DNA from: Duncaniella dubosii
Lineage (GTDB): Bacteria; Bacteroidota; Bacteroidia; Bacteroidales; Muribaculaceae
Direction: 5' to 3'
DNA length: 64,000 nt
Assembly: GCF_004803915.1 (NCBI RefSeq)
Contig: NZ_CP039396.1
Span: forward strand, 2,542,001-2,606,000
The notes below the pieces were generated by a model. The model was given only the letters and a program-made list of their open reading frames with translations, had not been told where the DNA came from and ran no database searches. Of the stretch, positions 41,803 through 63,230 are shown piece by piece. The number at the start of each line of letters is the position of its first letter. The first letter of the stretch is position 1. The position numbers and the translations under genes are program-made.

Positions 41803-42266
41803 GAACGGGTGTTTTAATTCATGCCGGTATGTAGGGGAGGGCGATTAAATGGGCGGCAGATCTGTCTGGATTCAGCGGAATTCTATTGATATTTGACTCA
41901 AAGAAGTGGCTTATGCCAACGCGCCCCGGCCAAAGGCCGACTTTCGCTCTTCTTTTCGTCGAATATTCTCCGTATATTTGATGTAGTCCTGGGCTAATAT
42001 TTTGACTACAAGGTTATTCTTGAGAATTCGCGTGAGGATGGGCAATGGATAAGAAATTGGTAGTGTGTTTGGTTACGCTATATTTCTCACGCTTTCAAAT
42101 AACTCTTTTACTTTGATGCAAAGTTAGCATTTATTTTTGAATTACGCCTCATTCCGGAGCGTAATTCTCTTTTATATTGTCTTTTCTGCGTCGCGGAAGC
42201 GACTATGCTTCAATAAGAAAAATACGAAATAAGGATACCATCATATAGAGGCTGAGTTTCCATAAC
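41803..42266. other. 464-bp intergenic region at the core/element boundary
   Basis: It holds a minus-strand -7 box TAACTTTG at 42119-42126 that may serve the M48 gene. A minus-strand open stretch without ATG at 41911-42072 ends QDYIKYTENIRRKEERKSAF and then GRGALA, and may be a protein remnant. GC content changes near 42240. No attachment-site repeat could be identified because only one end is visible. Confidence 0.45.
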
Positions 42267-42446
42267 CACAGGCAAAGGTAGTCCGTGTTCTTATCAGCCG
42301 TGCAAGGTCAGGCCCTTCGGGTTTCGTGGAAAAATCTTCCGCGCCCCGAGGGGCTTGCGGTATTTTTCCCGAAAACCTTGCGCGGCTGGAACACGACCTT
42401 TTAAGCCTGTAGTTATGGGAACTCCGGCCCCATAAGCCGGAATAAC
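42267..42446 (+). ncRNA. long structured leader RNA, copy 1
   Basis: A nested set of stems precedes the ATG at 42462. The outer stem is ACAGGC (42268-42273) with GCCTGT (42405-42410), then AAGGT with ACCTT. CGTGTTC (42284-42290) pairs with GAACACG (42389-42395). The 13-bp AGCCGTGCAAGGT (42296-42308) pairs with ACCTTGCGCGGCT (42375-42387). TTTCG(T)GGAAAAAT (42322-42335) pairs with ATTTTTCCCGAAA (42362-42374), topped by a GC-rich apical hairpin. A final pair of mutually exclusive hairpins, TTATGGG/CCCATAA or TCCGGC/GCCGGA, sits directly before the start codon. A diverged second copy at 47369 keeps the pairing through compensatory changes. The role, perhaps translational control, is inference. 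Confidence 0.8.
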
Positions 42447-42461
42447 AAAAAATAAGATGGT

Positions 42462-43283
42462 ATGTCAGAAACGACAAAGAACAAGTACACCCTTGAAAAC
42501 CTACTGCCGTTGAATGTGTCATACGACAGGGATCATATCCTCAGACAGCAGGATGTGGATATGGTGAACAGGCTCGTGGAAGTCATCGAAGGCTCACGCT
42601 CAAGCCTCACGCCTAAGATCGGAGACAGGATGCGTCATGTTGACCGGGAAGGAGATTTCTACGGATACGCGCTGCTTGAGAATTTTCGGGCAGACAAGAT
42701 GTCGGTATGCCTTGCACCATACGTGCCGTTTGTAGGTATCGGCGATCCTGATATATGGCTCAGCGTCAGCGGAGGGCCGTTCACAAGCATCGATCCCGCC
42801 GAAATGAAGTTCATCGGTTGGGAGGACGGGGTATTTAGCGCATGGGGACATTGCGGACCGTGCGCCAACGGAAGCGTGAGATTCATGGCTAAGGTCGCCA
42901 AATGGGAATACTCTGATCCGGAACCGCTCTATGGGGATTTCACCACCGAGACATGGCGCAAACTCTATGTCCGCATCAATGATAATCCTGAATCTCGCTA
43001 CCGGTATGTCGCCGACGGAACAGCCTTCCGTGACGATGCCGACTTTGACAAGTTCAAGAAGAACTATGAAGCGACAGTATTCAATCATTCAGATTCCATG
43101 CTGGTTGTATGGTGCTTCCGGGATAAGACCGAGTTCCTACAGGAAGATGAATGGAACAGACGGGATTTGCCAATGCAGGCGCGGATGTACAACGGACAAC
43201 TCGTGAAAGTCAAGATCAAAAAAGACATGGAGCGCCATGTCACCACATTCTACCGCATAGAACTACCACCGATAACTTACTAA
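42462..43283 (+). CDS. DUF4121-like protein of mobile elements (273 aa)
   Basis: GDRMRHVDREGDFYGYALLEN opens a compact domain. WLSVSGGPFTSIDPAEMKFIGWEDGVFSAWGHCGPCANGS is a striking conserved-looking core with Trp, Cys and Gly. The C-terminus is mixed. It resembles a family of unknown function (DUF4121) found in Bacteroidetes conjugative elements; the assignment is from memory of the family pattern. It is read from the structured leader RNA. Confidence 0.55.
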   Translation: MSETTKNKYTLENLLPLNVSYDRDHILRQQDVDMVNRLVEVIEGSRSSLTPKIGDRMRHVDREGDFYGYALLENFRADKMSVCLAPYVPFVGIGDPDIWLSVSGGPFTSIDPAEMKFIGWEDGVFSAWGHCGPCANGSVRFMAKVAKWEYSDPEPLYGDFTTETWRKLYVRINDNPESRYRYVADGTAFRDDADFDKFKKNYEATVFNHSDSMLVVWCFRDKTEFLQEDEWNRRDLPMQARMYNGQLVKVKIKKDMERHVTTFYRIELPPITY

Positions 43284-43294
43284 AACCATACGAT

Positions 43295-44233
43295 ATGCAG
43301 ACAACAACAGCAACACATGCAGGCGGCAATGCCGACCTGCTTTCCGGTATTCTCGGAGTGGAAATCCGGAACGAGGAGAAGATAACGGCTCAGGACAGGC
43401 TCTTTTGCGAAAAGCAGCAGGAAATGCTGTACAATGTGCTCGAACAGATAGACCAATGGTACGGAATCTTCACAAAAGAGGCCGAGAAATACCGTGAAAG
43501 CCACAGGATAAGCTACAAGGAGAACGGCGAAATCAGACACACTTACTCAACAGCCGATTCCGAGTATAAGGACTATACCGTCCACACGTTCAAGCCATTC
43601 AAGGCCATCAACGAACTTGTATCCTCAAATCTTAACGCCAACAAAGGGTTTGCCCAAAGGATAATCGGATATTTCAACCGCACATACAATGTGTCGGTAC
43701 CGGTTCCAGAAATAAACGGGAACACTCTTAAAATGGGTTCTCGTCCGCATTACATGACGTATGTGGATGCTGTAATAGAGCATCTCGGAGGACGCAGTTT
43801 CCGAAAGACCGCCGAGGAGGAACTTATCAAACGTTTCCACCAGCTTGTAAAACCTCATCGTTGGAGCAAGGTCAAACCGGAACTGAAAGGTGACAAGATT
43901 TCATTCCCGAACATCGTTGTCTTCGATAGTTTCTACTACGATTACAACCGCACAAACCATGTGCATTACAACTATCACGGGAACATATCAACTCTCTGCG
44001 AGGGGATAGCCTTCGGCTCCGATGATGTGCTGTGCGGGGACAAAGGAATGGTCATGCGTCTGAATCAGGACAATGTGGATATATCAGGCTGGTATGACCT
44101 GATGACAACCAACGCCACGGGGATGAAGTTCTTCCGCAACGGGCGAATAGATGTCAGATTCAAGGACAGAGAAGCGGCAAGCCTGTGTTTCAACCGTCTC
44201 CGCCTTGACGAACTGCGGTTGCAGGAGGAATAG
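43295..44233 (+). CDS. DUF4942-like protein of mobile elements (312 aa)
   Basis: The ATG at 43295 was chosen over an upstream frame start inside the preceding gene. EKQQEMLYNVLEQIDQWYG and AVIEHLGGRSFRKTAEEELIKRFHQ are helical. The central FPNIVVFDSFYYDYNRTNHVHYNYHGNISTLCEGIAF and GMKFFRNGRIDVRFKD are typical of DUF4942 proteins carried beside methylase-helicase genes. Function unknown. Confidence 0.6.
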   Translation: MQTTTATHAGGNADLLSGILGVEIRNEEKITAQDRLFCEKQQEMLYNVLEQIDQWYGIFTKEAEKYRESHRISYKENGEIRHTYSTADSEYKDYTVHTFKPFKAINELVSSNLNANKGFAQRIIGYFNRTYNVSVPVPEINGNTLKMGSRPHYMTYVDAVIEHLGGRSFRKTAEEELIKRFHQLVKPHRWSKVKPELKGDKISFPNIVVFDSFYYDYNRTNHVHYNYHGNISTLCEGIAFGSDDVLCGDKGMVMRLNQDNVDISGWYDLMTTNATGMKFFRNGRIDVRFKDREAASLCFNRLRLDELRLQEE

Positions 44234-44323
44234 ACAATCATAACAGAGAACAGACATCAGGAAGCACGGATATCGGCAACGGTGTGCGTGCTTCCCCATT
44301 TATAACCATATCCCAAGACGATC

Positions 44324-47323
44324 ATGTACGCCATCATACCCCAACAGATTCCCCCGAACCAGCGGGAGGAGATAAACGAGAAGATACTCTTCTGCATAGA
44401 TTCCGGCAAGGACACCATACCGGCGGAAAGCATCTACAACTGCTATACCGGCATCGGAGGGTTGCATAATCTGAGACGTGCCGATTACAGCAGCTACAAC
44501 GAGTATGCCGAGGCAAAGCGGGAGTTCGAGATGGGCCAGTTCTTCACGCCCCATGAGATATGCCGCGACATGGTGGATATGCTTTCACCCCAACCGTCGG
44601 AAATGATACTCGACATGTGCTGCGGCATGGGAAACTTCTTCAACCACCTGCCGAACCAACGCAACGCGCACGGGTTCGACATAGCCCCCAAGGCGGTTGC
44701 GGTGGCAAGACACTTATACCCCGATGCAAATATCATGCAATGCGACATTCAGCAGTTCGCACCGGAGAGCCGGTACGACGTGATAATCGGCAACCCGCCG
44801 TTCAACCTCAAATTCGGCATCAAAGTATCGCAGGTCTATTATGTAGACAAGGCACACGATGCGCTGAATCCTGCCGGTATACTTATGCTGATTGTCCCCG
44901 CATCTTTCCTGCAAAGCGAGTTCTGGGAGAAATCGAAGGTCAGGGCCGTAAACGCGCAGTTCTCGTTCATAGGACAGACCCTGCTTGATCCGGATGCCTT
45001 CGCATCACTCGGAGTCCGCAATTTCGGCACCAAGATAATGGTTTTCCTGCGTCACTCCCGACACATTGACATGCAGCCTTACAACGCTGACGATTTTGTG
45101 AGCGCGGAAGAACTGAAACAGCGCATAACTGACGCACGGGCGATGAAAGCCAGACTCAAGCTGCCGCTCATGCAGGAGACCAATGCCGTATGCCGTGAGG
45201 AACTTGAAAGGTTCGAGTATCTGCTCGCCAAATATATGTACGAGCTGAAAGCCCACAAGCGATTGAACCGACACATAGACAAGGCATTGGAACTCGTCGC
45301 AAAATTCCGCAACCAGAAACCGCCGGAGAACTGTACTCAAGCCGAGCGTGACGAATGGGAACGAAAGAAACTTACTCCGAACAAGGTACTGTCAGTCATA
45401 CGACGGTATATCCGTAATCAGGACACTATACGCCGCAAGGAAATAGCACTCGTAAAGACATCATACGGATTCAAGCTCAAGGCATACGCCCCAAAGATGC
45501 TTGAAAAAGATAAGCGTGCTGTTGTAAGCATGAACGACCTGATACTTGAACGCTCGGAGCTACCTGTGCCGGAAAAACCGACAGAGGCGAACTTACGCCA
45601 ACATAAGGCCGCAATGCGACTGATACGCAAAAAGCGGCACAGATATAGTCTTCAGAGCCGGACATTCGAGAGCATGGAGCCGCTGCCGGAACTGGCCGAA
45701 TATCTTGACAGGGCGACTTTCGTGAACAAGGACATGGATGTGTGCGAGTTCACCAACCTGCAAAAGCACGACCTGAACCTCATGTTGCAGAAACGGTACG
45801 CCCTGCTCAACTGGCAGCAGGGATCCGGCAAGACAGCGGCAGTTTATCAGAGGGCGAAGTATCTTCTGAAATTCAACAAGGTCCGGAATGTCATTGTGCT
45901 TGCTCCTGCAATAGCCACGAACATGACATGGGAGCCGTTTCTGAGAAACAACCGCGAGCCATACAGATTGCTGCGGAGCCATGCCGATTTTGAGAATATC
46001 CCCGCCGGAACATTCCTGATAGTATCGACCTCCATGCTCTGTAAGCTGAAACGATATCTCATGAAGTTCATCAAGCTGTCGGCCAGGAGGCTGTGCCTCA
46101 TATTCGACGAGTCGGATGAGATTACCAATCCCGTATCACAGAGAACGAGATATATACTCGCCATATTCCGCAGGGTGAAATACAAGATCCTTGACACCGG
46201 CACCACTACCCGGAACAACATAACGGAACTTTACAGCCAGTTCGAGTTGCTGTATAACAATTCGGTCAACATGACCTGTTGGAGTCCGCAGGTATATAAG
46301 CAGAACCGCGATAAGGAAATCGAGAGCGACAGCAACGACTGGTATGGAGAACCGTTCCCGGCTTTCAGGGGGCATGTGCTCTTCAAGTCGTGCCATTGTC
46401 CCGGAAAAGCGACAGTGTTCGGGATTGAGAAGCAGAACCAGGACATTTATAACAAGGACACGCTTTTCGAGCTTATCGGCAAGACAATCATCACGCGCAA
46501 GTTCAGGGATTTCGCCGGCGAGAAATATGATGTCAGGACGCAGACGGTCATACCTTCACCCGGAGAACGGGAGGTCTACCGTTTGATAATAGAGGAATTC
46601 TGCCGTATATGCGAGCTTTACTACAACAGTACGGGAGATGCGAAGAAGGACGCGGGGCTTCGGCTCATGCGTCAGATAAAGCTGCTGATAAAAGCCTGTT
46701 CGGTTCCGCATCTTATCGAGGGATATTACGGTGATGAATATCCGGGTAAGGTTCACCACATAGGCCGGATGATACGCCGGACAAAAGGGAAAGTAGCTGT
46801 GGGCTGCACATCTATTTCCGCCTATGAGATGTATGCCGGGTACATAAAGGAACATTTTCCCGACAGGCCGGTGTTCACAGTGACCGGAGCCATACCCTTC
46901 AAGAAACGGCAGGCCATCGTCAGCGAGTTCGACTCCACAATCAACGGTGTCCTCGTATGCACGCAGCAGTCTTTGAGCAGCTCGGTCAACATCCCGTCTT
47001 GCAACCAGATAATACTGGAATCCCTGCAATGGAACATCCCTAAGATGGAGCAGTTCTATTTCCGCTTCATACGACTTGATTCAAAAGACAAAAAGAAGGT
47101 GCATTTCGTGACATACGAGGATTCCGTGGAGCAGAACCTGATGGCGTTGGTGCTCACCAAGGAGCGCCTTAACGAGTTCATCAAGTGCGGTGAGGTCAAG
47201 GAGCAGGCGGAGATATTCAACGAGTTCGACATATCCATGTCGGTGATCGACAGCCTGCTGAGGCGTGAGACAGATGCCGAAGGCAAAGTGAGGATAAGCT
47301 GGGGTCGCCAGCTGGTAACGTGA
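44324..47323 (+). CDS. N6-adenine DNA methylase-helicase fusion (DarB-like architecture)
   Basis: 999 residues. Residues 60-245 are a gamma-class amino-methyltransferase: DMCCGMGNFF (97-106) binds SAM and NPPF (157-160) is the catalytic motif for adenine N6. Residues 490-930 are an SF2 helicase: Walker A QQGSGKT (498-504), a DESDE box (595-599) instead of DEAH, and C-terminal motifs KVAVGCTSISAYEMYAGY and GVLVCTQQSLSSSVNI. The same order is found in phage P1 DarB and in mobile-element antirestriction proteins. No target-recognition domain or nuclease is obvious, so protection of transferred DNA is the likely role. Confidence 0.85.
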   Translation: MYAIIPQQIPPNQREEINEKILFCIDSGKDTIPAESIYNCYTGIGGLHNLRRADYSSYNEYAEAKREFEMGQFFTPHEICRDMVDMLSPQPSEMILDMCCGMGNFFNHLPNQRNAHGFDIAPKAVAVARHLYPDANIMQCDIQQFAPESRYDVIIGNPPFNLKFGIKVSQVYYVDKAHDALNPAGILMLIVPASFLQSEFWEKSKVRAVNAQFSFIGQTLLDPDAFASLGVRNFGTKIMVFLRHSRHIDMQPYNADDFVSAEELKQRITDARAMKARLKLPLMQETNAVCREELERFEYLLAKYMYELKAHKRLNRHIDKALELVAKFRNQKPPENCTQAERDEWERKKLTPNKVLSVIRRYIRNQDTIRRKEIALVKTSYGFKLKAYAPKMLEKDKRAVVSMNDLILERSELPVPEKPTEANLRQHKAAMRLIRKKRHRYSLQSRTFESMEPLPELAEYLDRATFVNKDMDVCEFTNLQKHDLNLMLQKRYALLNWQQGSGKTAAVYQRAKYLLKFNKVRNVIVLAPAIATNMTWEPFLRNNREPYRLLRSHADFENIPAGTFLIVSTSMLCKLKRYLMKFIKLSARRLCLIFDESDEITNPVSQRTRYILAIFRRVKYKILDTGTTTRNNITELYSQFELLYNNSVNMTCWSPQVYKQNRDKEIESDSNDWYGEPFPAFRGHVLFKSCHCPGKATVFGIEKQNQDIYNKDTLFELIGKTIITRKFRDFAGEKYDVRTQTVIPSPGEREVYRLIIEEFCRICELYYNSTGDAKKDAGLRLMRQIKLLIKACSVPHLIEGYYGDEYPGKVHHIGRMIRRTKGKVAVGCTSISAYEMYAGYIKEHFPDRPVFTVTGAIPFKKRQAIVSEFDSTINGVLVCTQQSLSSSVNIPSCNQIILESLQWNIPKMEQFYFRFIRLDSKDKKKVHFVTYEDSVEQNLMALVLTKERLNEFIKCGEVKEQAEIFNEFDISMSVIDSLLRRETDAEGKVRISWGRQLVT

Positions 47324-47368
47324 TAATCAAAGGAATAATGAAAACATGCAATCCGTGGCATCCATTCC

Positions 47369-47533
47369 CACAGGCAAAGGTAGGCCGTGTCCCCGTCGGC
47401 AGTGCAAGGTCGGGCCGCAAGCGGTTTACGGGAAAATCATCCTCGCCGAAGGCTCCGGTATTTTCCCGTAAAACCCTGCACAGCCGGGACACGCACCTTT
47501 TGATGCCTGTGGAATGGAACCCACGGGTTCCAC
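47369..47533 (+). ncRNA. long structured leader RNA, copy 2
   Basis: It has the same layout as copy 1. ACAGGC (47370-47375) pairs with GCCTGT (47505-47510). CGTGTCCC (47386-47393) pairs with GGGACACG (47486-47493). GTGCAAGGT (47402-47410) pairs with ACCCTGCAC (47473-47481). TTTACGGGAAAAT (47425-47437) pairs perfectly with ATTTTCCCGTAAA (47460-47472). The 3' end again offers two exclusive hairpins, GTGGAA/TTCCAC or GGAACC/GGTTCC. It ends 17 nt before the ATG at 47551. Confidence 0.8.
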
Positions 47534-47550
47534 GAAACATAATTATAAAA

Positions 47551-48057
47551 ATGGAAAGAATGAATCTCAACGAGGCTGAACTGACGGTAACGACGCAGTA
47601 CATGATAGACATATCCCAAAGGACTGACTACAACATGACGCTGAGCGATTACGGCGACATGCAGGAATTCCTGTGCTGTTGCTCGGAACTGTTCCCGCAG
47701 GAACGGCATCCGCAATACAGATATGTGGCATGGGACAATATACCGTCCATATTGATAAACCGTGAATGGCTGTGTCCCAACTTCTTTGATATAAGGGATG
47801 CTTTCGACCAGCTTGATGACGAGGATATGGCCGATTTCGAGAGATGGTGCGCCAGATACGGCTATGACCTGAGAACCGACAATCCGCACCTGCTTGTGGC
47901 GCATTACAGGAACATGTACGGCGACAATGTAAGCTACAATGCCGAGTGTTATCTGCCTGATACGGATAACGAAAGCAGTTCTTGTATCTGTTACCCCGAA
48001 GGCTGGTTCGACCAAAACCTGCTGAGGCAGGAGATATTCGGTGACAATTACGATTAA
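47551..48057 (+). CDS. protein of unknown function (168 aa) under structured leader
   Basis: The ATG at 47551 is chosen because an earlier in-frame start at 47320 would place the whole structured RNA inside the coding sequence. The protein is acidic and rich in Tyr, Asp and Asn (FDQLDDEDMADFERWCARYGYDL). Its C-terminus, SSSCICYPEGWFDQNLLRQEIFGDNY, looks conserved. Function unknown; shares its leader type with the 42462 gene. Confidence 0.65.
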   Translation: MERMNLNEAELTVTTQYMIDISQRTDYNMTLSDYGDMQEFLCCCSELFPQERHPQYRYVAWDNIPSILINREWLCPNFFDIRDAFDQLDDEDMADFERWCARYGYDLRTDNPHLLVAHYRNMYGDNVSYNAECYLPDTDNESSSCICYPEGWFDQNLLRQEIFGDNYD

Positions 48058-48069
48058 AGACGAGGAATC

Positions 48070-48384
48070 ATGAGAATCAACCATCTGTCACCGCTGTATC
48101 CGACCGACCCGCGCGTGCACCGTGCCTATTCGGAGATACTCAATATCGTCCTGCTCTCACGGCATATAATGGATGTCAGCAGGATGCTCATCGAGAGGAA
48201 TGTCCGGCACGAGTACGGTTCGCTGTCCGGGCATTTCCACTGGTCGTTCAGGAACGACTGCTTCACACTGTGGCAAAGGACCGGATACAACCACCACACC
48301 TGTTTCCCGCAGAGGGTGATAGCCGTGCAATTCGGGACTATTGCCGCAAAGGATAAGGAAATAGATAACGTATCATTGAATTAA
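48070..48384 (+). CDS. protein of unknown function (104 aa)
   Basis: MRINHLSPLYPTDPRVHRAYSEILNIVL begins a small protein with several His and Arg residues (SGHFHWSFRNDCFTLWQRTGYNHHTCF). It lies 12 nt after the preceding gene. No family recognised. Confidence 0.55.
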   Translation: MRINHLSPLYPTDPRVHRAYSEILNIVLLSRHIMDVSRMLIERNVRHEYGSLSGHFHWSFRNDCFTLWQRTGYNHHTCFPQRVIAVQFGTIAAKDKEIDNVSLN

Positions 48385-48395
48385 AACAAAATATT

Positions 48396-48764
48396 ATGAG
48401 TCATCAGATAATCACAAAAATGGCATACAATGCCTCGACGCGCCATATCGAGACTTGGCAGCACTCCAACAATGTGTGGCCAAGGACCGACTGTTTCTAT
48501 GCCATGGATGTCGGAACCGATGAAAAGATGTTTCAATTCATAAAACTTATTGCCGAACGTTCATGGCAGGGACGCAAATGGCGAAGACAGTTTGAAATAC
48601 TGTTCAAGGAATACCCCGAACTACGCATGGACTCGTATGAAAATGAATTGAGGGGCAAAACCTGGGAGGAATATTGCGCCATAAGACGCAAATATGAAGA
48701 ACTGGCTGAAAGCAAACGAGGAGATATTGTAGCCCGGTTCAAGCAACTTGTGAAAATAAAATAG
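48396..48764 (+). CDS. basic protein of unknown function (122 aa)
   Basis: The middle is rich in Trp, Arg and Lys (ERSWQGRKWRRQFEILFKEYPEL), followed by a charged helix to the end (YCAIRRKYEELAESKRGDIVARF). Its base use differs slightly from its neighbours (more A/T). Possibly nucleic-acid binding. Confidence 0.55.
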   Translation: MSHQIITKMAYNASTRHIETWQHSNNVWPRTDCFYAMDVGTDEKMFQFIKLIAERSWQGRKWRRQFEILFKEYPELRMDSYENELRGKTWEEYCAIRRKYEELAESKRGDIVARFKQLVKIK

Positions 48765-48769
48765 ATGCC

Positions 48770-49063
48770 ATGAAAAGTGTGACAATATCCAACCGCGAGA
48801 TAGCGACTATGGCCTTCGACAGGCTGTGCAAGGAAAATAAAACGGATGCCGCCATAAGGCTCGCCCATGCGATGCTACACTCACAGTCGATATGCCTCGG
48901 ACTTGGCGATATGGAATGGGATATAGACCTCACCATCCAGAAATGCGGTGGTGAACCGAGGACAAACTACTGCGGGTATGCTGCACGCTTCCATTTCTCA
49001 CGGGAAACGGAGATGTCGGAACACAGATACCGCAGCATAAGAAACGAAATATACGGTGAATGA
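48770..49063 (+). CDS. protein of unknown function (97 aa)
   Basis: A helical first half (NREIATMAFDRLCKENKTDAAIRLAHAM) and a second half with two cysteines and several Arg/His residues. The stop overlaps an ATG of the next frame. No family recognised. Confidence 0.55.
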   Translation: MKSVTISNREIATMAFDRLCKENKTDAAIRLAHAMLHSQSICLGLGDMEWDIDLTIQKCGGEPRTNYCGYAARFHFSRETEMSEHRYRSIRNEIYGE

Positions 49064-49064
49064 T

Positions 49065-49934
49065 ATGGGAAATAAGGACAAAGAACTGACAATGGATTTC
49101 ATCAGATCCGTAATGGAGGACTCATATACCCTTGTGTGGGTCAATTATGATGACAACCTCAACGAGAACCTTGATGTCATAGAGACTTGCGTGAAAGAAA
49201 AAAGTACAATGACCCTATATGACAAGACCGATGACTGGTATCAGGATGCCAGATGGCACGGTGTCAGTCAGATTTTGGAGGATATCAGGTCAAGTTGTAT
49301 TGACGAAGGCTTTGACGAGGATGCCGTGGAGGAATTCATGGATACGCACCGCGATGATATAGTGAACATTATTTATGAGCGTGACGATTCGGACGCACTT
49401 AGCGGCCTGTTGAAGAATACGGATGACATTCCGGTTCGGGTCGAGATGCTTTCCAACTATGACTGTATCAACTCGCATTGGCTGGAATCGCAGGGAGGAT
49501 ATGTCTATCCCGACTCGTATTTCGGCGATATGGTGGATGCGCTTAACCTCAATCCTGCAAAGGTAAAAAGTTTCCTGGCTGAAAAAGGGATTGCCGTGTA
49601 TGGCAGGTGCCATTACCGGAAATCGCGTGACGGAAAGGAACTGGTGTCATATGAGGATTTTCACCGGGAGCTTGTCAACTCATGCTGCGGGGCCAATCTG
49701 CTGACCTATATCGGAAAGATAAATATCAAGGAACTTTATGAGTCAGGTTTCTCGGTGGCAAAGGTTACAATTCCGAAAGACAACTGTTGCGGCATATTCA
49801 GTTCGATGTATGGCGGCGGAAGCGTGCTTGATATGAAACTGCGGGAGGATGTAACCCTTGAACTGAAAATCGAGGATTACCACGGCTACCGCCTGGTGAT
49901 CGACAACCCCGAAAGAAATATGACTATTCAATAG
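49065..49934 (+). CDS. acidic protein of unknown function, probably frameshifted at its end
   Basis: The ATG at 49065 was chosen over a GTG at 49056. The protein is acidic with many Asp/Tyr residues. The segment YVYPDSYFGDMVDALNLNPAKVKSFLAEKGI (residues 146-176) is its most regular part. The annotated frame stops at 49934. Another frame continues KYDYSIGQVYGVSDSFFGE ... DMITL to a stop at 50011 and looks like a natural C-terminus. One missing A in the AAAGAAA run near 49912-49918 would join them. Function unknown. Confidence 0.6.
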   Translation: MGNKDKELTMDFIRSVMEDSYTLVWVNYDDNLNENLDVIETCVKEKSTMTLYDKTDDWYQDARWHGVSQILEDIRSSCIDEGFDEDAVEEFMDTHRDDIVNIIYERDDSDALSGLLKNTDDIPVRVEMLSNYDCINSHWLESQGGYVYPDSYFGDMVDALNLNPAKVKSFLAEKGIAVYGRCHYRKSRDGKELVSYEDFHRELVNSCCGANLLTYIGKINIKELYESGFSVAKVTIPKDNCCGIFSSMYGGGSVLDMKLREDVTLELKIEDYHGYRLVIDNPERNMTIQ

Positions 49935-50029
49935 GACAAGTGTACGGCGTAAGCGACTCTTTCTTCGGTGAGACCGTGAAACTTACGCCTACCGATATGA
50001 TAACTTTATAACAGCTAAATATTTACCAC

Positions 50030-50395
50030 ATGGAAGATTTCAGCAAACAGATTGAAGATCTCCGCAAGGAGATTACCGGAGCAATAATAGGATTGCTTCG
50101 CAGACACGGACTGACGGAACTGGAATTTCCGGAGTCCGGCACAGTTCCCAACGCCCCGGATTCAGTATATGTCATATTCTTTGACGATGATGGAGACCCG
50201 TTCGAGTGTATCATCACAAAAGTTTCGGTAATGGGTGACTCTTTATACCTGACCGCGAGAGAAAAGCATGACGGATACATATTCCGGACCGAGAGCCAAT
50301 TCAATCTCTCGGTTCGCAGCCTTATATGGCTCAACGAAATCCTGCTTGCGACGCAGGAACTGCTTGAACCCGAAAATGAACCATTAAAAACATAA
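50030..50395 (+). CDS. acidic protein of unknown function (121 aa)
   Basis: An N-terminal amphipathic helix (MEDFSKQIEDLRKEITGAIIGLLRRHGL) precedes beta strands (SVYVIFFDDDGDPFECIITKVSVMGDSLYLTA) and a Leu-rich C-terminal helix. Six bases separate it from the next ATG. No family recognised. Confidence 0.55.
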   Translation: MEDFSKQIEDLRKEITGAIIGLLRRHGLTELEFPESGTVPNAPDSVYVIFFDDDGDPFECIITKVSVMGDSLYLTAREKHDGYIFRTESQFNLSVRSLIWLNEILLATQELLEPENEPLKT

Positions 50396-50400
50396 AAAGT

Positions 50401-50625
50401 ATGGCAACAGACATGAACAGGCATATATGGGAGGGATGGACTGTCGGAATGTTCATTTCCGAACTCGCCCCCATCGTGGAGATGATAATGACCGGACAGA
50501 GCTGGCGCAGACCCTTCACCTCAAAAGCGGAGCTTGCCGACTGGTGCAGGGAAAACCAGCCATTCTATAAGAAACGTATTCCGGCGGTGAATAACCATTT
50601 CGCAAAAATGTACAACCTCAAATGA
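50401..50625 (+). CDS. small protein of unknown function (74 aa)
   Basis: WEGWTVGMFISELAPIVEMIMTGQSWRRPF followed by LADWCRENQPFYKKRIPAVNNHFA. The spacing of hydrophobic and basic residues suggests a small helical domain. It has the size and position common for accessory proteins of Bacteroidetes integrative elements. Confidence 0.55.
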   Translation: MATDMNRHIWEGWTVGMFISELAPIVEMIMTGQSWRRPFTSKAELADWCRENQPFYKKRIPAVNNHFAKMYNLK

Positions 50626-50632
50626 CACGGAT

Positions 50633-50836
50633 ATGGATATAGTGAATCTGATTTCGACAACCTGCTCCTGCGACAAGCAGACCGCACAGGAATATCTCGA
50701 AGCCGAGGTACGTCATCTTCAGGAATTGCAGGAACTTAGCGACCTCCGTGAAGATGACCTGTATATGGCTTGTAGCAATCTTGGCATAGAAGACGACTAT
50801 GTGGAGTATTTCATCAACCGCGTGGCTATGGCCTGA
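50633..50836 (+). CDS. small helical protein, UBA-like (67 aa)
   Basis: IVNLISTTCSCDKQTAQEYLEAEVRHLQEL resembles the three-helix UBA-type pattern in which a CDKQTAQEYL turn joins the helices. The rest is acidic and helical. Function unknown. Confidence 0.5.
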   Translation: MDIVNLISTTCSCDKQTAQEYLEAEVRHLQELQELSDLREDDLYMACSNLGIEDDYVEYFINRVAMA

Positions 50837-50854
50837 CGCACAAAATTTAACGAT

Positions 50855-51889
50855 ATGATCTACTTTCAGAACATCAACAGTCTGGCGGACCTGAAAAAGA
50901 AGTACCGTCGGCTCGCAATCGACAACCATCCCGACAAAGGTGGCAGCACGGAAACAATGCAGCGCATCAACTCCGAGTTTGAGAAGCTGTTTGCAGTATG
51001 GAAGGACGTCCCTGTGTCGCCGACATCGGATCTTAACGGATACGAGAACGACTATGGCGGAGCATCCGCCGGTGAATACACCCGCTATGTCTACAACGAA
51101 TACCGGTGGCGAGGCAGTAACTATAAAGGACAATCTTCACGGGAGATTGTAGAGATAATACGTAACTGGCTCAAGGAAACTTATCCGAAATACAAGTTCT
51201 CGGTAAGACGTGACGGATACAGTTCAATACACGTCACCCTAATGACTGCCGATTTCGAGGCATTCACAAAAGAGTCAGGATATATCCACTGTTCTATCAA
51301 TCATTACCGGGTTGAAAGAGAACAAGGATTGACAGACCGTGCCCGGGAGGTGATGACCAACGTAAAGGATTTTGTCATGTCGTACAACTATGACGACAGT
51401 GACCCTATGACCGACTACTTCTGCACCAACTTCTATCTTACTCTCGGCATCGGCAAATGGAGCAATCCCTACAAAGTCGTGCTTCCGAAACTCGGCATGA
51501 AAGGCCCGAAGCCAAAGACTTTCAGGCATCCCGAAGGTGCGGCGCACAAGGCTATCCGGCTGGCTCTTGAAAAAGGTCGATTCGACTTTGTGGAGAGTAT
51601 GCGACATTCCGGATACAAGGTCTACGGCTCGGACCACTACGGCTCAAAGGGCGAGCATTACTTCTGGCCGAAACAGTATTCAAGCGCCAAGTCCGCACAG
51701 AAACGCATCGACAAACTGGAAAAGGCAGGCATAATCTGCCGGTTGACCGGATATAACGGCGGCTGTATCCGTTTCATCGGCTACACTCCTGAAACGGAGC
51801 GTATGCTCCGGCAGGAAGAACTGGAATATAACGAAGCCCGTGAGAAATGGGAGTTGGAGAATGGCCCCCTATGTCCGGCTTCGGCATAA
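50855..51889 (+). CDS. J-domain protein with LPD29-like region (344 aa)
   Basis: Residues 1-50 form a short J domain with the HPD motif (LKKKYRRLAIDNHPDKGGSTETMQRINSEFEKLF). It would stimulate an Hsp70 ATPase. Residues 85-135 (EIVEIIRNWLKETYPKYKFSVRRDGYSSIHV) match the pattern of large polyvalent protein-associated domain 29. Near 230-300 is a third region rich in Lys and Gly. Polyvalent domains are typical of proteins delivered or used by mobile elements on entry. Complete. Confidence 0.75.
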   Translation: MIYFQNINSLADLKKKYRRLAIDNHPDKGGSTETMQRINSEFEKLFAVWKDVPVSPTSDLNGYENDYGGASAGEYTRYVYNEYRWRGSNYKGQSSREIVEIIRNWLKETYPKYKFSVRRDGYSSIHVTLMTADFEAFTKESGYIHCSINHYRVEREQGLTDRAREVMTNVKDFVMSYNYDDSDPMTDYFCTNFYLTLGIGKWSNPYKVVLPKLGMKGPKPKTFRHPEGAAHKAIRLALEKGRFDFVESMRHSGYKVYGSDHYGSKGEHYFWPKQYSSAKSAQKRIDKLEKAGIICRLTGYNGGCIRFIGYTPETERMLRQEELEYNEAREKWELENGPLCPASA

Positions 51890-51946
51890 CGAAACAATGA
51901 GGATTTCTGCTTTTTATGGGAATCCTCAAAAACCTAAAAAATTCTT

Positions 51947-52456
51947 ATGGCACAGGAGAACATGGGCGACTGGATGGAATATGCCCACGAATATGCGAAA
52001 GCCCAACGGGAGATGAAAATCGAAAAATGGGTCTGTATCACCATTGAATACCGGACGAAGGAACGGCAACGGGTTGTTTTGTTCCGCTATGACCCCCCGC
52101 GTGATATATATGAGCGGCGCCAATGGGTTGTCAGATGGCGCCATGCCCGACTCCTGTGCCAATATCCCAAAGAGAACGTTCAGACATATTTCTCATATTA
52201 TGACAGGCGCACCGGACTAAGCATGGATTTCGGCTCTGCCCTCTCCAGACTGTCTGCGGCGAAGGCCCAAATCACAATAGCCCGACGCAAGGAACAGGAA
52301 TATCTTGAATACCAGCGGCAGAACAATATGTTCTTCAATGAGGCGGAAGATGAAACGCTTGCAAAATTTCGCCGGAAACTGCAATCCAAGATCGAAAAAT
52401 ATACCGAACTTGAAAGAGAGGTTATACTATCGGTTCAAAATGTGAGGCTACAATGA
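51947..52456 (+). CDS. basic coiled-coil protein of unknown function (169 aa)
   Basis: Highly charged: YAHEYAKAQREMKIEKWVC, then RYDPPRDIYERRQWVVRWRHARLL, and a C-terminal coiled-coil region (RKEQEYLEYQRQNNM ... FRRKLQSKIEKYTELEREV). It is convergent with the RhuM gene and overlaps its end by nine bases. No family recognised. Confidence 0.55.
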   Translation: MAQENMGDWMEYAHEYAKAQREMKIEKWVCITIEYRTKERQRVVLFRYDPPRDIYERRQWVVRWRHARLLCQYPKENVQTYFSYYDRRTGLSMDFGSALSRLSAAKAQITIARRKEQEYLEYQRQNNMFFNEAEDETLAKFRRKLQSKIEKYTELEREVILSVQNVRLQ

Positions 52457-53311
52457 ATCCAAGATCATTTCCGGGGATGATTCCATCTTTGAAAACGCGA
52501 ATAGTTTCATACCGAGGTCTTTTATTGAGGCTCCTATGTGATAGAGGGTATCATCAATCACGATAAAACGGTCATGAATACGTTGAGCCTGTCTGACATC
52601 AATTGGAGCGTATTGGTCATTATGCCTTTCTATATCAAGTTGCAACTGGTGGTCTATCCGCTTGGTATAGATTGTAGCCAAAACTCCACGACTTCGTTTG
52701 TCAAGAAGCGTCAATACTGTTTCATCAATGTAATTGTCAATTAGGACAATGCGTTTCTTTGCTCGCTTCACAAGGTCGCATACAAATCCATAGGCATCGA
52801 ATATCTGTCCGTCAAAGAAGATGCCCTCTTTGGGAGGAAGTGATGTGCGGAGAAAGAAATCCACTTTTCCTGATAATTCCTTTATCTGGTTGTCATGCTC
52901 AGAAAGTCTATGGTCTATACGGCTTTCCATATAAAGCAAACGCTGATTTACGCTATAACCGCGTAACAAATGGTCTTTCAACACTTGCGTAACCCAGATG
53001 CGAAAAAGTGTCGCATTTCGACTATTCACTCGATAGCCAACGGATAGGATTGCATCCAAATTATAATACTTTGTCGTATAACGCTGATTACTATCGTTAC
53101 CCATATGTTCCAAAATGGAACATGTGCTATTTTCCTCTAATTCCCCGGACTTGTATATATTTGCCAAGTGTTTGGTTATAGCCGGTCGTTTTGTGCCAAA
53201 CAGGTCGGCAATCTGCTGTTGTGTCAACCATACGGTTTCATTCTCAAGCCTGACTTCAAGTGAAACAGAGGCATCAGGTTGGTATAGTATTATTTCGTTG
53301 TTTGTATCCAT
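52448..53311 (-). CDS. RhuM-family protein with C-terminal phospholipase D-like region
   Basis: EVRLENETVWLTQQQIADLFGTKRPAITKHLANI (residues 18-51) is the RhuM N-terminal DNA-binding pattern. YYNLDAILSVGYRVNSRNATLFRIWVTQVL (81-110) is its second block. The C-terminal KRIVLIDNYIDETVLTLL and RIHDRFIVIDDTLYHIGAS (about 245-263) look like a half phospholipase D site with Asp in place of the canonical Lys (H-x-R/K-F). Such proteins accompany defence and restriction islands. It may act as regulator of, or effector with, the two genes upstream. Confidence 0.75.
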   Translation of the reverse strand: MDTNNEIILYQPDASVSLEVRLENETVWLTQQQIADLFGTKRPAITKHLANIYKSGELEENSTCSILEHMGNDSNQRYTTKYYNLDAILSVGYRVNSRNATLFRIWVTQVLKDHLLRGYSVNQRLLYMESRIDHRLSEHDNQIKELSGKVDFFLRTSLPPKEGIFFDGQIFDAYGFVCDLVKRAKKRIVLIDNYIDETVLTLLDKRSRGVLATIYTKRIDHQLQLDIERHNDQYAPIDVRQAQRIHDRFIVIDDTLYHIGASIKDLGMKLFAFSKMESSPEMILDSL

Positions 53312-53494
53312 AGAGAGTGTTTTTAGATTCCAAAATTAACGAAAATAATCGGCATTTCAGTGAGTTATGATTGATATTCGCTATAATTCCACAAATTTCC
53401 AATATATTACTGTAAGAATAAATGAAATATCCGAATGGGCAATTTACAAATTTTACAATGTGCTATCGCACCTATGATATATTTAGCAACACTC

Positions 53495-54904
53495 CTATAA
53501 CATATCAAAATAAAGGTTCATAGCAATTAATGCACGAGAAAAATCATATTTATCCAGATCTTTTTTTACTTCATTAATAATACTAATGATACTTTGGCAA
53601 TTATCTCCAACTACAATCTTACCATCACCATCAATCAATGTCCTATCTTTTAGAAAATGTCCATCAATAGCACAATAGTATTGATACAGCAACAAGAATT
53701 TATATAAACTATATGCGTTCTCCGGAGTTTTGGAAGTTCGTGCAAACATTGGAGAAATAACCTCATATAGGGCAGACATTGAAATCTGTTTAGAATAAAT
53801 TTCTTGGAATATATCATCCTTAAAGCATTTTAACACAGCTAATGGGATACTTAAAAAGAAAGGCAAGGTATCATATCTATGTGTTTTGAATCCCATTCCA
53901 CACAGGATACAGACTTTCTCAATTTGGCGTAAAGACAACTTTTGTGTTTCTGAAACTGAGCCTATGATTTCACATAAATCTTGTACGGCATGAGATCTCA
54001 TAGTAGATGAGATGCCTAATTTTCTTAAAACACTATTACAGAATGTTTCATTATCTGCATAAGGCAATGAAACCTCAATATCAATAAACCGCCTCAGGTA
54101 TTCCTCCGCTTTAATGCCGTCACTACCAAAATACCCTCTTATAGAACTGCATAGTTGTTCTTTATCAATAGCAAGGACAAATATTAAATTAGGAGTAGAA
54201 AATAGGTGTTTGATTTTCTCAAGCAATGCTACTGAATACTTTGGATTACATCGGTCCAGTTCATCAACGAATATTATAACCGGATGCCCTGTTTCTTCAG
54301 CGATATAGTTAATATAAGCACTAAATGCTTCTTTAAAGTCATTAAAAGCATTTATTTCATTTACATAGTCAGATATGGCGGTTTCCTTATAACGATAGTG
54401 CGTTTCTTTAGCATCTTTATATGCTTTTACACCTTCATCAACTCCATCGACTAAATCACCGCCATTACCCATTGTAAATAGAGATATTATAGTCTTGGCT
54501 AATCCTTTCTTGGCAGGTTTTATCCCTTGTAAGGCACCTATAAGTTTATTAGCCGCTTCAATATGATTTTCGTTTTCATCTGGCAAAAAAGATTTTAAGC
54601 AAGATAAGACAGCCAAAATTGGGTCTTCAAAGTATTCATGCTCCCAAGCGTTTAATATTTCAGCACAATACGGTATCTCGCCCGGCTTAGTCAATGACAA
54701 CATATCACGCCACATATTAATAAATGTTGTCTTGCCACTTCCCCACGATGAGTTTATCGCTAATACAAGTCCACCGCTATATGTATCAATCACATTTGTA
54801 AGAGCTTCCGCAAAAGGCTTTCTCCCTAAAGCACAATTGGCAAAAGGATTTTCTTTGTCGGATTCTGTATTAAGAACAGAATGGATATTTTTACCTTCAA
54901 TCAT
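53495..54904 (-). CDS. KAP-family P-loop NTPase
   Basis: WGSGKTTFIN (54-63) is Walker A and VIIFVDELDRCNPK (209-222) is Walker B with the KAP DELDRC signature. The rest is helical, with no clear transmembrane pair between the motifs, so it is probably a soluble member. KAP NTPases often appear in bacterial anti-phage loci as AAA-like switches. It follows the TIR gene by 76 nt on the same strand. Strongly AT-rich, unlike the core genes. 469 aa, complete. Confidence 0.85.
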   Translation of the reverse strand: MIEGKNIHSVLNTESDKENPFANCALGRKPFAEALTNVIDTYSGGLVLAINSSWGSGKTTFINMWRDMLSLTKPGEIPYCAEILNAWEHEYFEDPILAVLSCLKSFLPDENENHIEAANKLIGALQGIKPAKKGLAKTIISLFTMGNGGDLVDGVDEGVKAYKDAKETHYRYKETAISDYVNEINAFNDFKEAFSAYINYIAEETGHPVIIFVDELDRCNPKYSVALLEKIKHLFSTPNLIFVLAIDKEQLCSSIRGYFGSDGIKAEEYLRRFIDIEVSLPYADNETFCNSVLRKLGISSTMRSHAVQDLCEIIGSVSETQKLSLRQIEKVCILCGMGFKTHRYDTLPFFLSIPLAVLKCFKDDIFQEIYSKQISMSALYEVISPMFARTSKTPENAYSLYKFLLLYQYYCAIDGHFLKDRTLIDGDGKIVVGDNCQSIISIINEVKKDLDKYDFSRALIAMNLYFDML

Positions 54905-54980
54905 AAAGATGTGTTTGTTTTCTATAAATCAAATCCATAAAAACATTACCTGCGGCTTTAATTAGATTTTACCACATAAT

Positions 54981-57281
54981 CTATGTCGTTGAATTAACAA
55001 TTTTTTTATACGTATCATCCATATTCTGCCTATGACAAATTTCACGAAACGCATCTAAGGTATAGTTAACATCTCTGCTATGACGAATTTTAAGTATCCC
55101 AACTAAATCACTTATAGCCTCTTGAATATTACGATATACAAAATATTTAAGTTCTGCCTCCATTGTAGGAATAATAACATCGTTATAGCTATATGATGTA
55201 TGACGCATATTTGTTATCAATGTTTGCAGAATTTCCTTGTCCGGATATTGACTCCTTACATAACACCTAAAATACGCTTCAATAAAATATGGACTACTAT
55301 TATCTTGACTGTAGCAGTGTTCAGCTAATTTAAGTGCATCATTATATCTGCCTTGTTTCATAAGACAAATAACCAATTCATGTTCTGCTTTGTAATATTT
55401 TCGAGAATTATTCCCAATTTTATATGAAAGTGCTTTTTCAAATTCCTGTTGAGCTTTAGGGTAATTCCCTCCGATGCGATGATAATATCCTAAGATAAAA
55501 TGGTATGAATAATCAGAAAAATGAGCTAATTCTTTAAATAGTTCTTTATCTTGTGTTTTGCAATAAGCCAAACACATCCAATACCGAATCGGATATATAA
55601 TGGTTTCATAATTATTACGTTTATAATCATATAGCACTTTATGTGCTATATTTATTACATTCTCATTATCTCCTTTTCTGTATAAGTCAATTATCACTTT
55701 TAAAGCATATGATGGAAGTATATAACTTGTTGAAGCTCGGAATATTGGATTCTTAATTTGCTCTTTTATTCTAAATAATTCCTGAGACAAATCGAGGCTA
55801 TCAGCATCAGAAAGGCTAATATAATTAGCGGAGAGTTCATTTATACGATCCTCGTACTCTTTCTTGATTTTTAGTCGTTGCCGATCAATATAATCAGAAA
55901 AAGCAGGACTTATTCGCATGTATTGATTACAAGAACCAAATGTTTCATAGATAGAATAAAATCTAAATGTTTCCAATATTTCATCAAGATTTGTCTTTGA
56001 ATAGATTTGCGAAAGGAAATCATAGCTAATAAAATCAAATCGGCACATTATCTGTAACACCTGTATCTGATCATGGTCTTTTGCAAAAACTTGATAAAGC
56101 ATATGCAGATCATTATCATACATGGCTTGAATATTCTTTAAATCTGTTTTTGCTGTGTGCAAGTCATCATTAGCGATATCGTCCACTATACAATATACTT
56201 GCTTGGGAAATCCTGATAAACTATTTATGAAAAAGTCTAAATCATCATCACTGCATTTAACACCTTTATTTTTAGCATAAGCGATAAATATTTCTTTAAG
56301 ATACTTTTTCCCTATCACATCAATATTATGAGCCTGCAATTTTGTATTTTCTCGTTTTTCTTTAGGTGACAAAGAACAACTTGAAGCAATGAATAACATT
56401 ACTTGTTTAACCAAATCAGGATGGTTAATAATGTCTTTAAACCAATCAGCAACAATACCATATGATGTAACGATACACTTGTTGTCAGTTATTCGTATGC
56501 GCTCATGATATGACTCAACCTTATTAATAAGCTCAACAGCCAAGTCTTGGCATATTTCAGCAGATGCCATCTTGTTCTTAAGTTCAGTCTTGTCGTATAC
56601 TTGAACAAAATCATTCAACTGTTCAATGAAATCTTCAATTGAATCATGATCACTCAAGGAAATATCATATAGATCATATGACGGATGAAGGTTTTTAGTC
56701 ATTCGTGTCACATATACTTCTCGTAACAATCGCTTTCGACCTATATGTGGAATACCAGTTACAATAATTGCTCGTCGATCTGTGTTCATACTTTTGTTAA
56801 GTTCGGATGTGATCTCGCTGACATCATTATCTCTTCCAAAGAATATGCGCGACATTGCATCCAAATTAGGTTCTGCTTTCCAAAGCACTTCACATACTCG
56901 ACGCCTAATAACTCTTGAAAGCATTAACGCATTTGTATATTTACTAGTAAGGTATTTGCGTATCCAATTTTTAATCCGAGTATCATTAATATCTGTATCG
57001 TCAATTAAAAATGGTATAAATTCTGCTTTTTGTGTATCAAGTAAGTTATCACGAAATCGAGATAATTCATACTTGCACCAATCTGAATTTAATGATTCGT
57101 TCGAAATCAGCATAACGAATACATTAGAATTGTCTAATGAATTATTTATTTCATCTTCTAAATTTCTTCCATTTTCAAATACAAATCGGTCTACGATAGC
57201 AAAATCTTTGCCAATATGATTTGCTACCTCATCAACAAAATCTTTTTGACTCCAGCTATGAGATAAGAATATTTTAATCAT
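54981..57281 (-). CDS. TIR-STAND-like protein with TPR C-terminus
   Basis: TIR domain, residues 1-125: IFLSHSWSQKDFVDEV, then DNSNVFVMLISNESLNSDWCKYELSRF, in which the WCxxE Glu (near 72) is the expected NADase catalytic residue. Residues 150-420 form an NTPase region with a degenerate P-loop GIPHIGRKRLL (176-186) and no acidic Walker B in CIVTSYGIVADW. Residues 560-740 are TPR-like helices (GNYPKAQQEFEKALSY, GRYNDALKLAEHCY). This is the sensor-switch-effector layout of TIR-based anti-phage proteins: TPRs recognise, TIR destroys NAD+ and stops growth. First gene of the block. Confidence 0.8.
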   Translation of the reverse strand: MIKIFLSHSWSQKDFVDEVANHIGKDFAIVDRFVFENGRNLEDEINNSLDNSNVFVMLISNESLNSDWCKYELSRFRDNLLDTQKAEFIPFLIDDTDINDTRIKNWIRKYLTSKYTNALMLSRVIRRRVCEVLWKAEPNLDAMSRIFFGRDNDVSEITSELNKSMNTDRRAIIVTGIPHIGRKRLLREVYVTRMTKNLHPSYDLYDISLSDHDSIEDFIEQLNDFVQVYDKTELKNKMASAEICQDLAVELINKVESYHERIRITDNKCIVTSYGIVADWFKDIINHPDLVKQVMLFIASSCSLSPKEKRENTKLQAHNIDVIGKKYLKEIFIAYAKNKGVKCSDDDLDFFINSLSGFPKQVYCIVDDIANDDLHTAKTDLKNIQAMYDNDLHMLYQVFAKDHDQIQVLQIMCRFDFISYDFLSQIYSKTNLDEILETFRFYSIYETFGSCNQYMRISPAFSDYIDRQRLKIKKEYEDRINELSANYISLSDADSLDLSQELFRIKEQIKNPIFRASTSYILPSYALKVIIDLYRKGDNENVINIAHKVLYDYKRNNYETIIYPIRYWMCLAYCKTQDKELFKELAHFSDYSYHFILGYYHRIGGNYPKAQQEFEKALSYKIGNNSRKYYKAEHELVICLMKQGRYNDALKLAEHCYSQDNSSPYFIEAYFRCYVRSQYPDKEILQTLITNMRHTSYSYNDVIIPTMEAELKYFVYRNIQEAISDLVGILKIRHSRDVNYTLDAFREICHRQNMDDTYKKIVNSTT

Positions 57282-61309: not shown

Positions 61310-61335
61310 ATATGTATTTGGCTTTAGTGCCAACA

Positions 61336-61365
61336 CAAATATAGATATCAAATTATTATCCCAAC
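61336..61365 (-). promoter_or_regulatory. promoter of the RIT operon, partly inside the terminal repeat
   Basis: On the minus strand GTTG (61365-61362) and TATATTTG (61343-61336) are separated by 18 bp. The -33-like box is part of the repeat's inverted GTTGGGATAA site. Confidence 0.5.
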
Positions 61366-61441
61366 CATAATCGTATATAATAATCTGTTTTACAGGATAT
61401 ATACCTCTTTGGTTGGGATAATAATGAAGTTGGGATAACTG
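61347..61441 (-). repeat. right 95-bp terminal inverted repeat of the RIT element
   Basis: Perfect reverse complement of 57636-57730; the match ends sharply on both sides. Confidence 0.92.
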
Positions 61442-61470
61442 CTATTATCCTAACTTTCGGATAATAGCAG
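61439..61470. repeat. 12-bp stem hairpin at the right end of the RIT element
   Basis: CTGCTATTATCC and GGATAATAGCAG are perfectly inverted around an 8-nt loop. It exists only at this end and may mark the recombination junction. Confidence 0.8.
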
Positions 61471-61617
61471 CGCGTCTTTTCCGAATCGGCGGAATGTCGA
61501 GCAACGCTTTATAAGGTCAGCCCTCAGCAGCGAGTCGGCCTGCGCTTTCGTCAGATTGCAGGTGAGTTTCTCGCCGGGAAGGAGCTTGTGGCCGTAACCT
61601 ATATAGGGCTTATCCAT
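61468..61617 (-). pseudogene. lysozyme gene remnant, middle part
   Basis: On the minus strand it reads DKPYIGYGHKLLPGE, LTKAQADSLLRADL and CSTFRRFGKDALL, the catalytic-loop region of phage-type lysozymes (YIGYGH ... QADSLL.aDl). The N-terminal 50-60 residues that should precede it are missing; the open frame stops near 61617-61625 next to a hairpin that may be the end of a second insertion. Confidence 0.75.
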
Positions 61618-61647: not shown

Positions 61648-61699
61648 TAACGTTATCCAAAGTAATGATATAAAAAGCTTCTATACTCATGGTTATACA

Positions 61700-62173: not shown

Positions 62174-62177
62174 TTAT

Positions 62178-63227: not shown

Positions 63228-63230
63228 AAA

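Follow-up and report, generated by a model that had tools for sequence, protein, structure and literature searches.

Candidate single-stranded-DNA promoters with a Bacteroidota consensus in a conjugative element of Duncaniella dubosii

Two long, imperfect hairpins in the genome of Duncaniella dubosii are probably single-stranded-DNA promoters of a conjugative element, resembling in their working the Frpo sequences of plasmid F and built on the promoter consensus of the Bacteroidota, with the minus strand as the proposed transferred strand. They lie in the window that we analysed, i.e. the whole stretch of 64,000 nt from NZ_CP039396.1 (assembly GCF_004803915.1), positions 2,542,001 to 2,606,000 of the forward strand. 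The computed support consists of structure, co-evolving arms, a promoter box present in one arm, co-orientation with the genes that follow and, in part of the family, anti-restriction genes downstream. A first-pass annotation had read the two segments as copies of a conserved leader RNA of a mobile element, perhaps a translational switch; the conservation, the structure, the covariation and the position upstream of genes all hold, and it is the RNA as the functional molecule that we set aside.

The shared nested stems named for the two diverged copies are present, and both copies fold far better than shuffled sequence. Against dinucleotide shuffles, the plus-strand folds reach z scores of -10.2 (copy 1) and -5.4 (copy 2) and the minus-strand folds -8.7 and -6.9, and in each of the four folds (two copies, two strands) 0 of 200 shuffles was as stable as the real sequence. 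The copies are alignable along their length, and with longer flanks the basal stem extends 5' past the coordinates given earlier, to the limits listed in Table 1. A single strand of either copy is thus computed to form a long, stable hairpin, a property expected of Frpo and ssi sequences. The mutually exclusive 3' hairpins that the annotation described exist, on paper, for copy 1, where a shorter segment folds a local hairpin before the start codon and a longer segment places the same bases in the basal stem; copy 2 showed the basal-stem form only. Rfam, which had been suggested as a place to search, gave no match on either segment (Rfam 15, gathering score or E up to 5); sub-threshold matches to c-di-GMP-I and PVT1_3 fall elsewhere in the window.

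Table 1. Positions in the window of the two hairpins, their putative promoter boxes and the plus-strand genes around them
Feature	Position	Strand	Basis or match
Hairpin 1, long, imperfect	42238..42440	minus	DNA-parameter fold of minus strand 42235-42460, -60.3 kcal/mol
Hairpin 1, covariance-model match	42265-42418		E 1.4e-30; model member by construction
Hairpin 1, putative -7 box TACCTTTG (consensus TAnnTTTG)	42273..42280	minus	fold coordinates and conservation among relatives
Hairpin 1, -33-like CCTTGC (TTG), paired within inner stem	42302..42307	minus	
Hairpin 1, stem side opposite 42260-42273, just downstream of the -7 box	42405..42418	plus	fold
DUF4121 protein, first gene after hairpin 1	42462..43283	plus	PF13497, E 3.5e-65
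Protein without Pfam match, partly in the stretch colinear with the G504 element	43295..44233	plus	BLAST match
DNA methyltransferase-helicase fusion, 999 aa	44324..47323	plus	N6_Mtase E 3.3e-10, Helicase_C E 1.3e-9
Hairpin 2, same family as hairpin 1	47345..47534	minus	DNA-parameter fold of minus strand 47335-47550, -60.8 kcal/mol
Hairpin 2, covariance-model match	47367-47518		E 2.5e-26; model member
Hairpin 2, putative -7 box TACCTTTG	47375..47382	minus	
Hairpin 2, -33-like CCTTGC (TTG)	47404..47409	minus	
ArdA-like anti-restriction protein, 168 aa, first gene after hairpin 2	47551..48057	plus	sequence
Remaining plus-strand cluster, six ORFs, partly colinear with the G504 element	48070..51889	plus	
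Last ORF of the cluster	50855-51889	plus	LPD29 and weak DnaJ match

The hairpins belong to a family. BLAST with copy 1 finds matches in 7 of 61 genomes, its own counted, several of which cover the inner part only and differ in the outer arms. An inner-part pattern matches 14 of 198 genomes of the taxonomic family, whereas the reversed pattern has 0 matches among those listed for the same 198 genomes; it also finds at least 119 stretches in a named genome collection, by title mostly Bacteroidales with a few in other phyla, and 7 contigs in a viral collection. From 165 records we obtained 105 unique elements among the matches listed, with copy 2 added by hand, and kept 86 for detailed tables by requiring a relaxed -7 motif and a recognizable 3' end. 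Ten of those dropped were without even the relaxed motif, hits in Colwellia, Pseudorhodoplanes, Gallionellaceae and Planctomycetaceae among them, and nine were without the 3' end; two of the elements (L086 and L114) are incomplete and absent from most tables. The annotation had also proposed a covariance-model search. Our model, built from 31 elements, matches 55 of 295 genomes of the order and 15 of 296 phylum-wide genomes (13 from the same class, in other orders), both under stricter filters, which lose weak matches. Of 60 model matches, 51 form a set free of motif selection, though the model spans the motif columns; those left out are both window copies, four elements that the pattern set already contains or that are near-identical to copy 1, the partial matches L220 and L229, and in L207 a weak second match. 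Counts over 135 elements combine 84 kept for the relaxed box with these 51 model hits, and all family counts include related elements. The model search found no third hairpin in the window. A plasmid search with copy 1 gave no match, and a phage-collection search with copy 2 matched 4 unannotated faecal records. Within the family, the 3' arm is lost or replaced in L025, L040, L048, L057 and L086, the first four being without a recognizable core end and L086 running into other sequence, which suggests insertion into, or decay of, the hairpin. Seven model matches from another order of the class (L215, L219, L225, L226, L227, L232 and L235), 193-208 nt long and with ACTTGC as inner box, probably form a distinct subfamily.

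Compensatory pairing, first noticed between the two copies, extends to their relatives. Across 83 elements, the outer arms score on average 47.4 with their own partner, 21.9 with arms of other clusters and 23.0 with shuffled arms, and the own partner wins in 82 of the 83; the covariation is therefore real. RNAalifold fails to recover the outermost stems from a MAFFT alignment, in which the 3' arms are wrongly placed, and a palindrome alignment was used instead.

What do the conserved parts of the hairpin spell? Near its base the 5' arm carries GCAAAGGTA or a variant, which on the minus strand reads TACCTTTGC, and relatives have TAATTTTG, TATCTTTG, TAACTTTG, TATTTTTG or TAGCTTTG at the same site, giving the consensus TAnnTTTG, in which the two nn positions vary and TTTG hardly does. 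The primary sigma factor of the Bacteroidota is described, in the available text of PMC7366714, as using a -7 box TAnnTTTG paired with a TTTG near -33. The inner stem supplies CCTTGC, GCAAGG being fixed by the search pattern itself. The TTG is followed at 21-23 nt by a strict box in 69 of the 105 unique pattern hits among the matches listed, and by a relaxed box at that distance in 39 of the 51 model hits, while the intervening sequence is variable; a spacer of 21-23 nt is long, unless it is shortened by the bulge. The strict box occupies the minus-strand 3' arm in 58 of the 84 relaxed-box elements and 39 of the 51 model hits (97 of 135 together), as against 1 of 84 and 0 of 51 in the opposite arm, where shuffles expect 0.6 and 1.1. 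Because the box is all but confined to that arm, a folded minus strand has TTG and TAnnTTTG on the non-template side and the 5' arm as template, so that the boxes of the host sigma factor are rebuilt in the stem as in Frpo and ssi sequences, with the Bacteroidota consensus in place of that of sigma-70. As part of a duplex, this box is directed leftwards, away from the gene. Pairing over 77 elements (six without the motif excluded) is 0.57-0.66 across the first seven bases of the box and 0.43-0.61 across the five bases before it, rises to 0.96 at the last G of the box and the next base, and falls to 0.26 and 0.19 in the spacer bulge; the dip is therefore wider than the -7 box itself.

The genes to the right of the hairpins mostly run away from them. 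A mechanical-ORF count was noisy (right neighbour plus for 52 members, minus for 29, none for 14), and a hexamer-based gene caller replaced it; checked on L177, which is in its training set, the caller recovers 12 of 13 annotated genes at 15.8-24.6 kb, two with another start. Among 86 hairpins, near-duplicates included and six without a right gene, the right neighbour is on the plus strand in 74 of 80 and on the minus strand in 6. The segments are themselves seldom coding, as had been supposed: long ORFs do cross the hairpins, yet called genes overlap only 3 of 86, and on this ground we rejected the possibility of a translated segment. Two matched plasmid records annotate a 'hypothetical protein' across the hairpin.

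The proteins behind the two hairpins had been called unrelated and unknown, which is not quite so, as copy 1 precedes a DUF4121 protein and copy 2 an ArdA-like one. The latter has no Pfam or NCBIfam match by itself, but is 34% identical over 123 aa to an ArdA behind another hairpin, itself Pfam-positive (E 1.4e-34), and 42% to its homologue in L161. A structure search with its predicted fold (mean pLDDT 68.5) gave no PDB match at E 0.001 or better and a PDB sequence search gave none, so the assignment rests on sequence. An ArdA-like ORF follows within 3 kb on the same strand in at least 13 of 135 elements, a lower bound because many loci extend less than 3 kb, and in 0 of 135 for each of three other placements. 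In a Parabacteroides distasonis record an annotated ArdA starts 113 bp past the BLAST match and 136 bp past the model match (E 2.7e-11), and is followed by minus-strand tra genes and then by mobABC on the plus strand. ArdA from B. fragilis elements counters the type I enzyme EcoKI, according to the available part of PMC3969726. Further downstream genes in the family include PcfK/PcfJ clusters, whose hairpins were confirmed, PRTRC protein E and ThiF, together with many without an assigned function.

Which strand would enter a recipient? In a first set of 12 genomes, 30 of 39 hairpins have a relaxase gene (PF03432) within 50 kb, 29 on the same strand and 1 on the opposite one; in a second set of 24 genomes, 33 hairpins have one within 50 kb (26 same, 7 opposite) and 35 do not. 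This second set comprises 68 of 81 model hits, the other 13 being in genomes without any relaxase match, and the polarity counts are not independent because several hairpins share one element. Six of the seven opposite cases lie beside relaxases with open frames of 221-404 aa and one beside a frame of 562 aa; these relaxases may belong to other elements, and short frames also occur among the same-strand cases. The relaxase gene usually lies in the lagging region and enters last (PMC11541004, in its available text). From relaxase orientation and this general rule, we infer that the hairpin-led genes have the transferred strand as template. Many hairpins are 14-49 kb upstream of the relaxase, with tra genes between them where the map was read, and some are 3-30 kb on its far side, beyond mob genes and hence outside the leading region as usually defined. 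The available text of a study of Hfr-like transfer in B. fragilis (PMC5729914) gives no nick strand.

The closest view of a whole element comes from a related one in genome G504. Parts of its first plus-strand cluster are colinear with the window, at 66-75% identity (BLAST). The element carries six hairpins, all on the plus strand and each ahead of plus-strand genes. Its minus-strand block (by Pfam TraO, DUF4138 (TraN-like), TraM, TraJ, TraG ATPase and a ParA-like protein) has no hairpin before the tra genes. A gap at about 2461.2-2461.9 kb of the contig follows, and beyond it the plus strand encodes a MobC-like protein (PF19514) at the mobA position, the relaxase and, further on, topoisomerase and PRTRC E. 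Should oriT be in this gap and the relaxase enter last, all the hairpin-led genes would have the transferred strand as their template. The window at about 42000-52000 corresponds to the first hairpin-led cluster of such an element (G504:C1 2434-2445 kb). No tra or mob genes were seen among the window ORFs scanned, and since a third hairpin is likewise missing, the window's copy of the element may be a remnant or rearranged.

We therefore picture the following sequence of events, in which the use of the hairpins by RNA polymerase and the timing of expression are deduced from the features above. At transfer, the recipient would receive the window's minus strand in single-stranded form, and the folded stem of that strand would rebuild a promoter for the Bacteroidota housekeeping sigma factor, with the minus-strand 3' arm as non-template strand (TTG, TAnnTTTG), the 5' arm as template and a bulge in the spacer. 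Weak pairing of the -7 box and of the few bases before it would ease melting. RNA polymerase would then leave the hairpin at its base along the incoming strand, making mRNA for the plus-strand genes; in hairpin 1, the presumed start of transcription into the DUF4121 gene may be placed on the stem side just downstream of the -7 box (Table 1). The DUF4121, methyltransferase-helicase, ArdA-like and other genes would in this way be transcribed before a second strand exists, and once the DNA is double-stranded the box would face away from them.

In Frpo of plasmid F, the stem rebuilds -10 and -35 boxes and is needed for early expression of leading genes, second-strand synthesis shuts it off, and Frpo1 and Frpo2 are about 5 kb apart (PMC9849209, as far as its available text goes), a spacing that the window hairpins share. 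Like Frpo1 and Frpo2 and the Frpo-like sequences of ColIb-P9, the present hairpins are long and imperfect with boxes rebuilt in the stem. Frpo lies upstream of leading-region genes and uses sigma-70 boxes; the Bacteroidota family has TTG/TAnnTTTG boxes, recognized here from the sequence, and some of its hairpins are beyond mob genes. Plasmid F, taken as a yardstick, has a long hairpin upstream of ssb, and its ssb and psiB genes have the same orientation as traM; a TTGnnn-N15-19-TAnnnT scan of that hairpin found no box. By analogy the Bacteroidota family would work like Frpo, and sequence kinship is unsupported, since the family model has no match at E up to 1 in F 48000-68000 (the leading region) and the sigma consensus is another one. 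The Frpo-like candidates of Samuel et al. 2024 (PMC11541004) are, in the available text, likewise hairpins before anti-defence genes on the transferred strand; the queries described there were known Frpo sequences and the TTGACA/TATAAT consensus, so that the search should miss the Bacteroidota family, and 'Bacteroid' has 0 occurrences in the main text. EGeRS1 of pLS20-family plasmids (PMC8708921) also consists of repeated regulatory sequences before establishment genes. Its authors, in the part of their text available, judge it highly unlikely that a single-strand promoter is at work, since what is transferred is the non-template strand and the fold shows no promoter; for the Bacteroidota hairpins, in contrast, the inferred strand fits and a promoter is visible in the fold. 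Candidate structured RNAs of the HMP2_4078 type (PMC8040213, available text) are likewise palindromic and from Bacteroidetes, HMP2_4078 itself being 109 bp, near phage-integrase domains, proposed as an RNA and compared with the hairpin family by description only. Our literature search found no single-stranded-DNA promoter described for Bacteroidota; as its scope lay short of supplementary motif lists (e.g. that of PMC8040213) and subscription papers, the family is possibly already listed somewhere as an unnamed RNA motif.

Could the hairpins instead act as RNA? A structured 5' leader, in which an upstream promoter transcribes the plus-strand hairpin and the RNA controls transcription or translation of the next gene, would suit the stable plus-strand fold and the co-oriented genes, and ahead of copy 1 there is indeed a possible ordinary rightward box, TATTTTTG at 42132. 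That box, judged by position, is the sole such case: of 82 elements, 1 has a rightward TAnnTTTG in the 160 nt upstream, below the 6.0 expected by shuffling, and of 78 elements, 2 have one downstream of the hairpin (2.8 expected). The conserved motif reads as a -7 box on the antisense strand only and, with 1 exception among 135 elements, in one arm only; Rfam offers no match, and the translational switch of the first-pass annotation is likewise not supported. Among the arm transitions of 80 elements (three weak elements left out), 162 make a G.T wobble on the minus strand and 64 on the plus strand; by cluster, the lean is 19 minus to 6 plus, 12 clusters being tied (two-sided sign test 0.015). 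With 32 elements, an earlier version had given 70 to 25 and 5 of 7 clusters (p 0.16). Mispaired arms give 58% because of base composition, and against this control the cluster-averaged 65% is not significant (one-sided p 0.11), so the asymmetry is suggestive only, leaning against a sense RNA and giving no proof of a single DNA strand. We regard the leader RNA as unlikely for the family; at copy 1 in particular it is possible because of the box at 42132.

Sites that mainly prime second-strand synthesis, through an RNA primer or primosome loading and with expression secondary, could share the hairpin anatomy, and having several per element in one orientation, spread across it, would suit them. 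The title of the Frpo report is said to name both transcription and primer synthesis. What speaks against them is that the hairpins stand before co-oriented genes and are missing before the G504 tra genes; priming as the main role appears quite improbable to us. Finally, TTG and TAnnTTTG also read leftwards in double-stranded DNA, so the palindrome might contain an ordinary leftward promoter that makes an antisense or divergent transcript, and strict minus-strand boxes are somewhat common within the 160 nt upstream (11 of 82 against 6.0 expected). The left neighbour is, however, on the plus strand in 48 of 78 cases and on the minus strand in 30, copy 2 has as its left neighbour a plus-strand gene that ends 43 bp from it, and the co-evolving second arm would be left unexplained, which makes a leftward promoter very unlikely.

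Conjugative elements move genes, including resistance genes, between gut Bacteroidales, and to our knowledge little is known about how the elements of these bacteria survive restriction on entry. We lean, with some reserve, towards a broader proposal: that conjugative elements of the Bacteroidia carry single-stranded-DNA promoters of their own, of TTG/TAnnTTTG type and independent of Frpo in sequence, several per element and on one strand, giving a whole-element entry programme in which entry operons (anti-restriction, methyltransferase-helicase, PRTRC and others) are switched on from the incoming strand and the tra operon is not. If this is true, the entry programme would span the whole element, beyond the leading region; a promoter with activity confined to the incoming strand would allow entry genes to be recognized by sequence alone, among them many without an assigned function (DUF4121, the PcfK/PcfJ clusters, PRTRC); and single-strand promoters would also exist with an unrelated sigma consensus.

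Several further observations concern the surroundings of the hairpins. To the right of the plus-strand cluster, the minus strand of the window at 52448-57281 encodes RhuM (E 1.6e-17), a KAP NTPase (E 1.6e-34) and TIR domains (TIR_2 E 3.8e-16, with a weak ThsB_TIR match), possibly a defence island. Beyond it, at 57759-63932, five tyrosine-recombinase (Phage_integrase) ORFs form two minus-strand groups, 57759-61351 and 62178-63932, with an M23-peptidase ORF on the plus strand between them (61700-62173). The B. fragilis plasmid NZ_OR675140.1 (L175) has a second, diverged hairpin in opposite orientation (17245-17398, minus, E 3.7e-8); the adjoining mobilization genes, of the BfmA/BtgA type, and a putative abortive-infection gene likewise lie on the minus strand of the locus. 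Hairpins also recur in pairs about 570 nt apart, at 5114/5684 in L041, 6706/7273 in L106 and 3492802/3493381 in G000:C1, and the pairs of L041 and L106 enclose a small gene.
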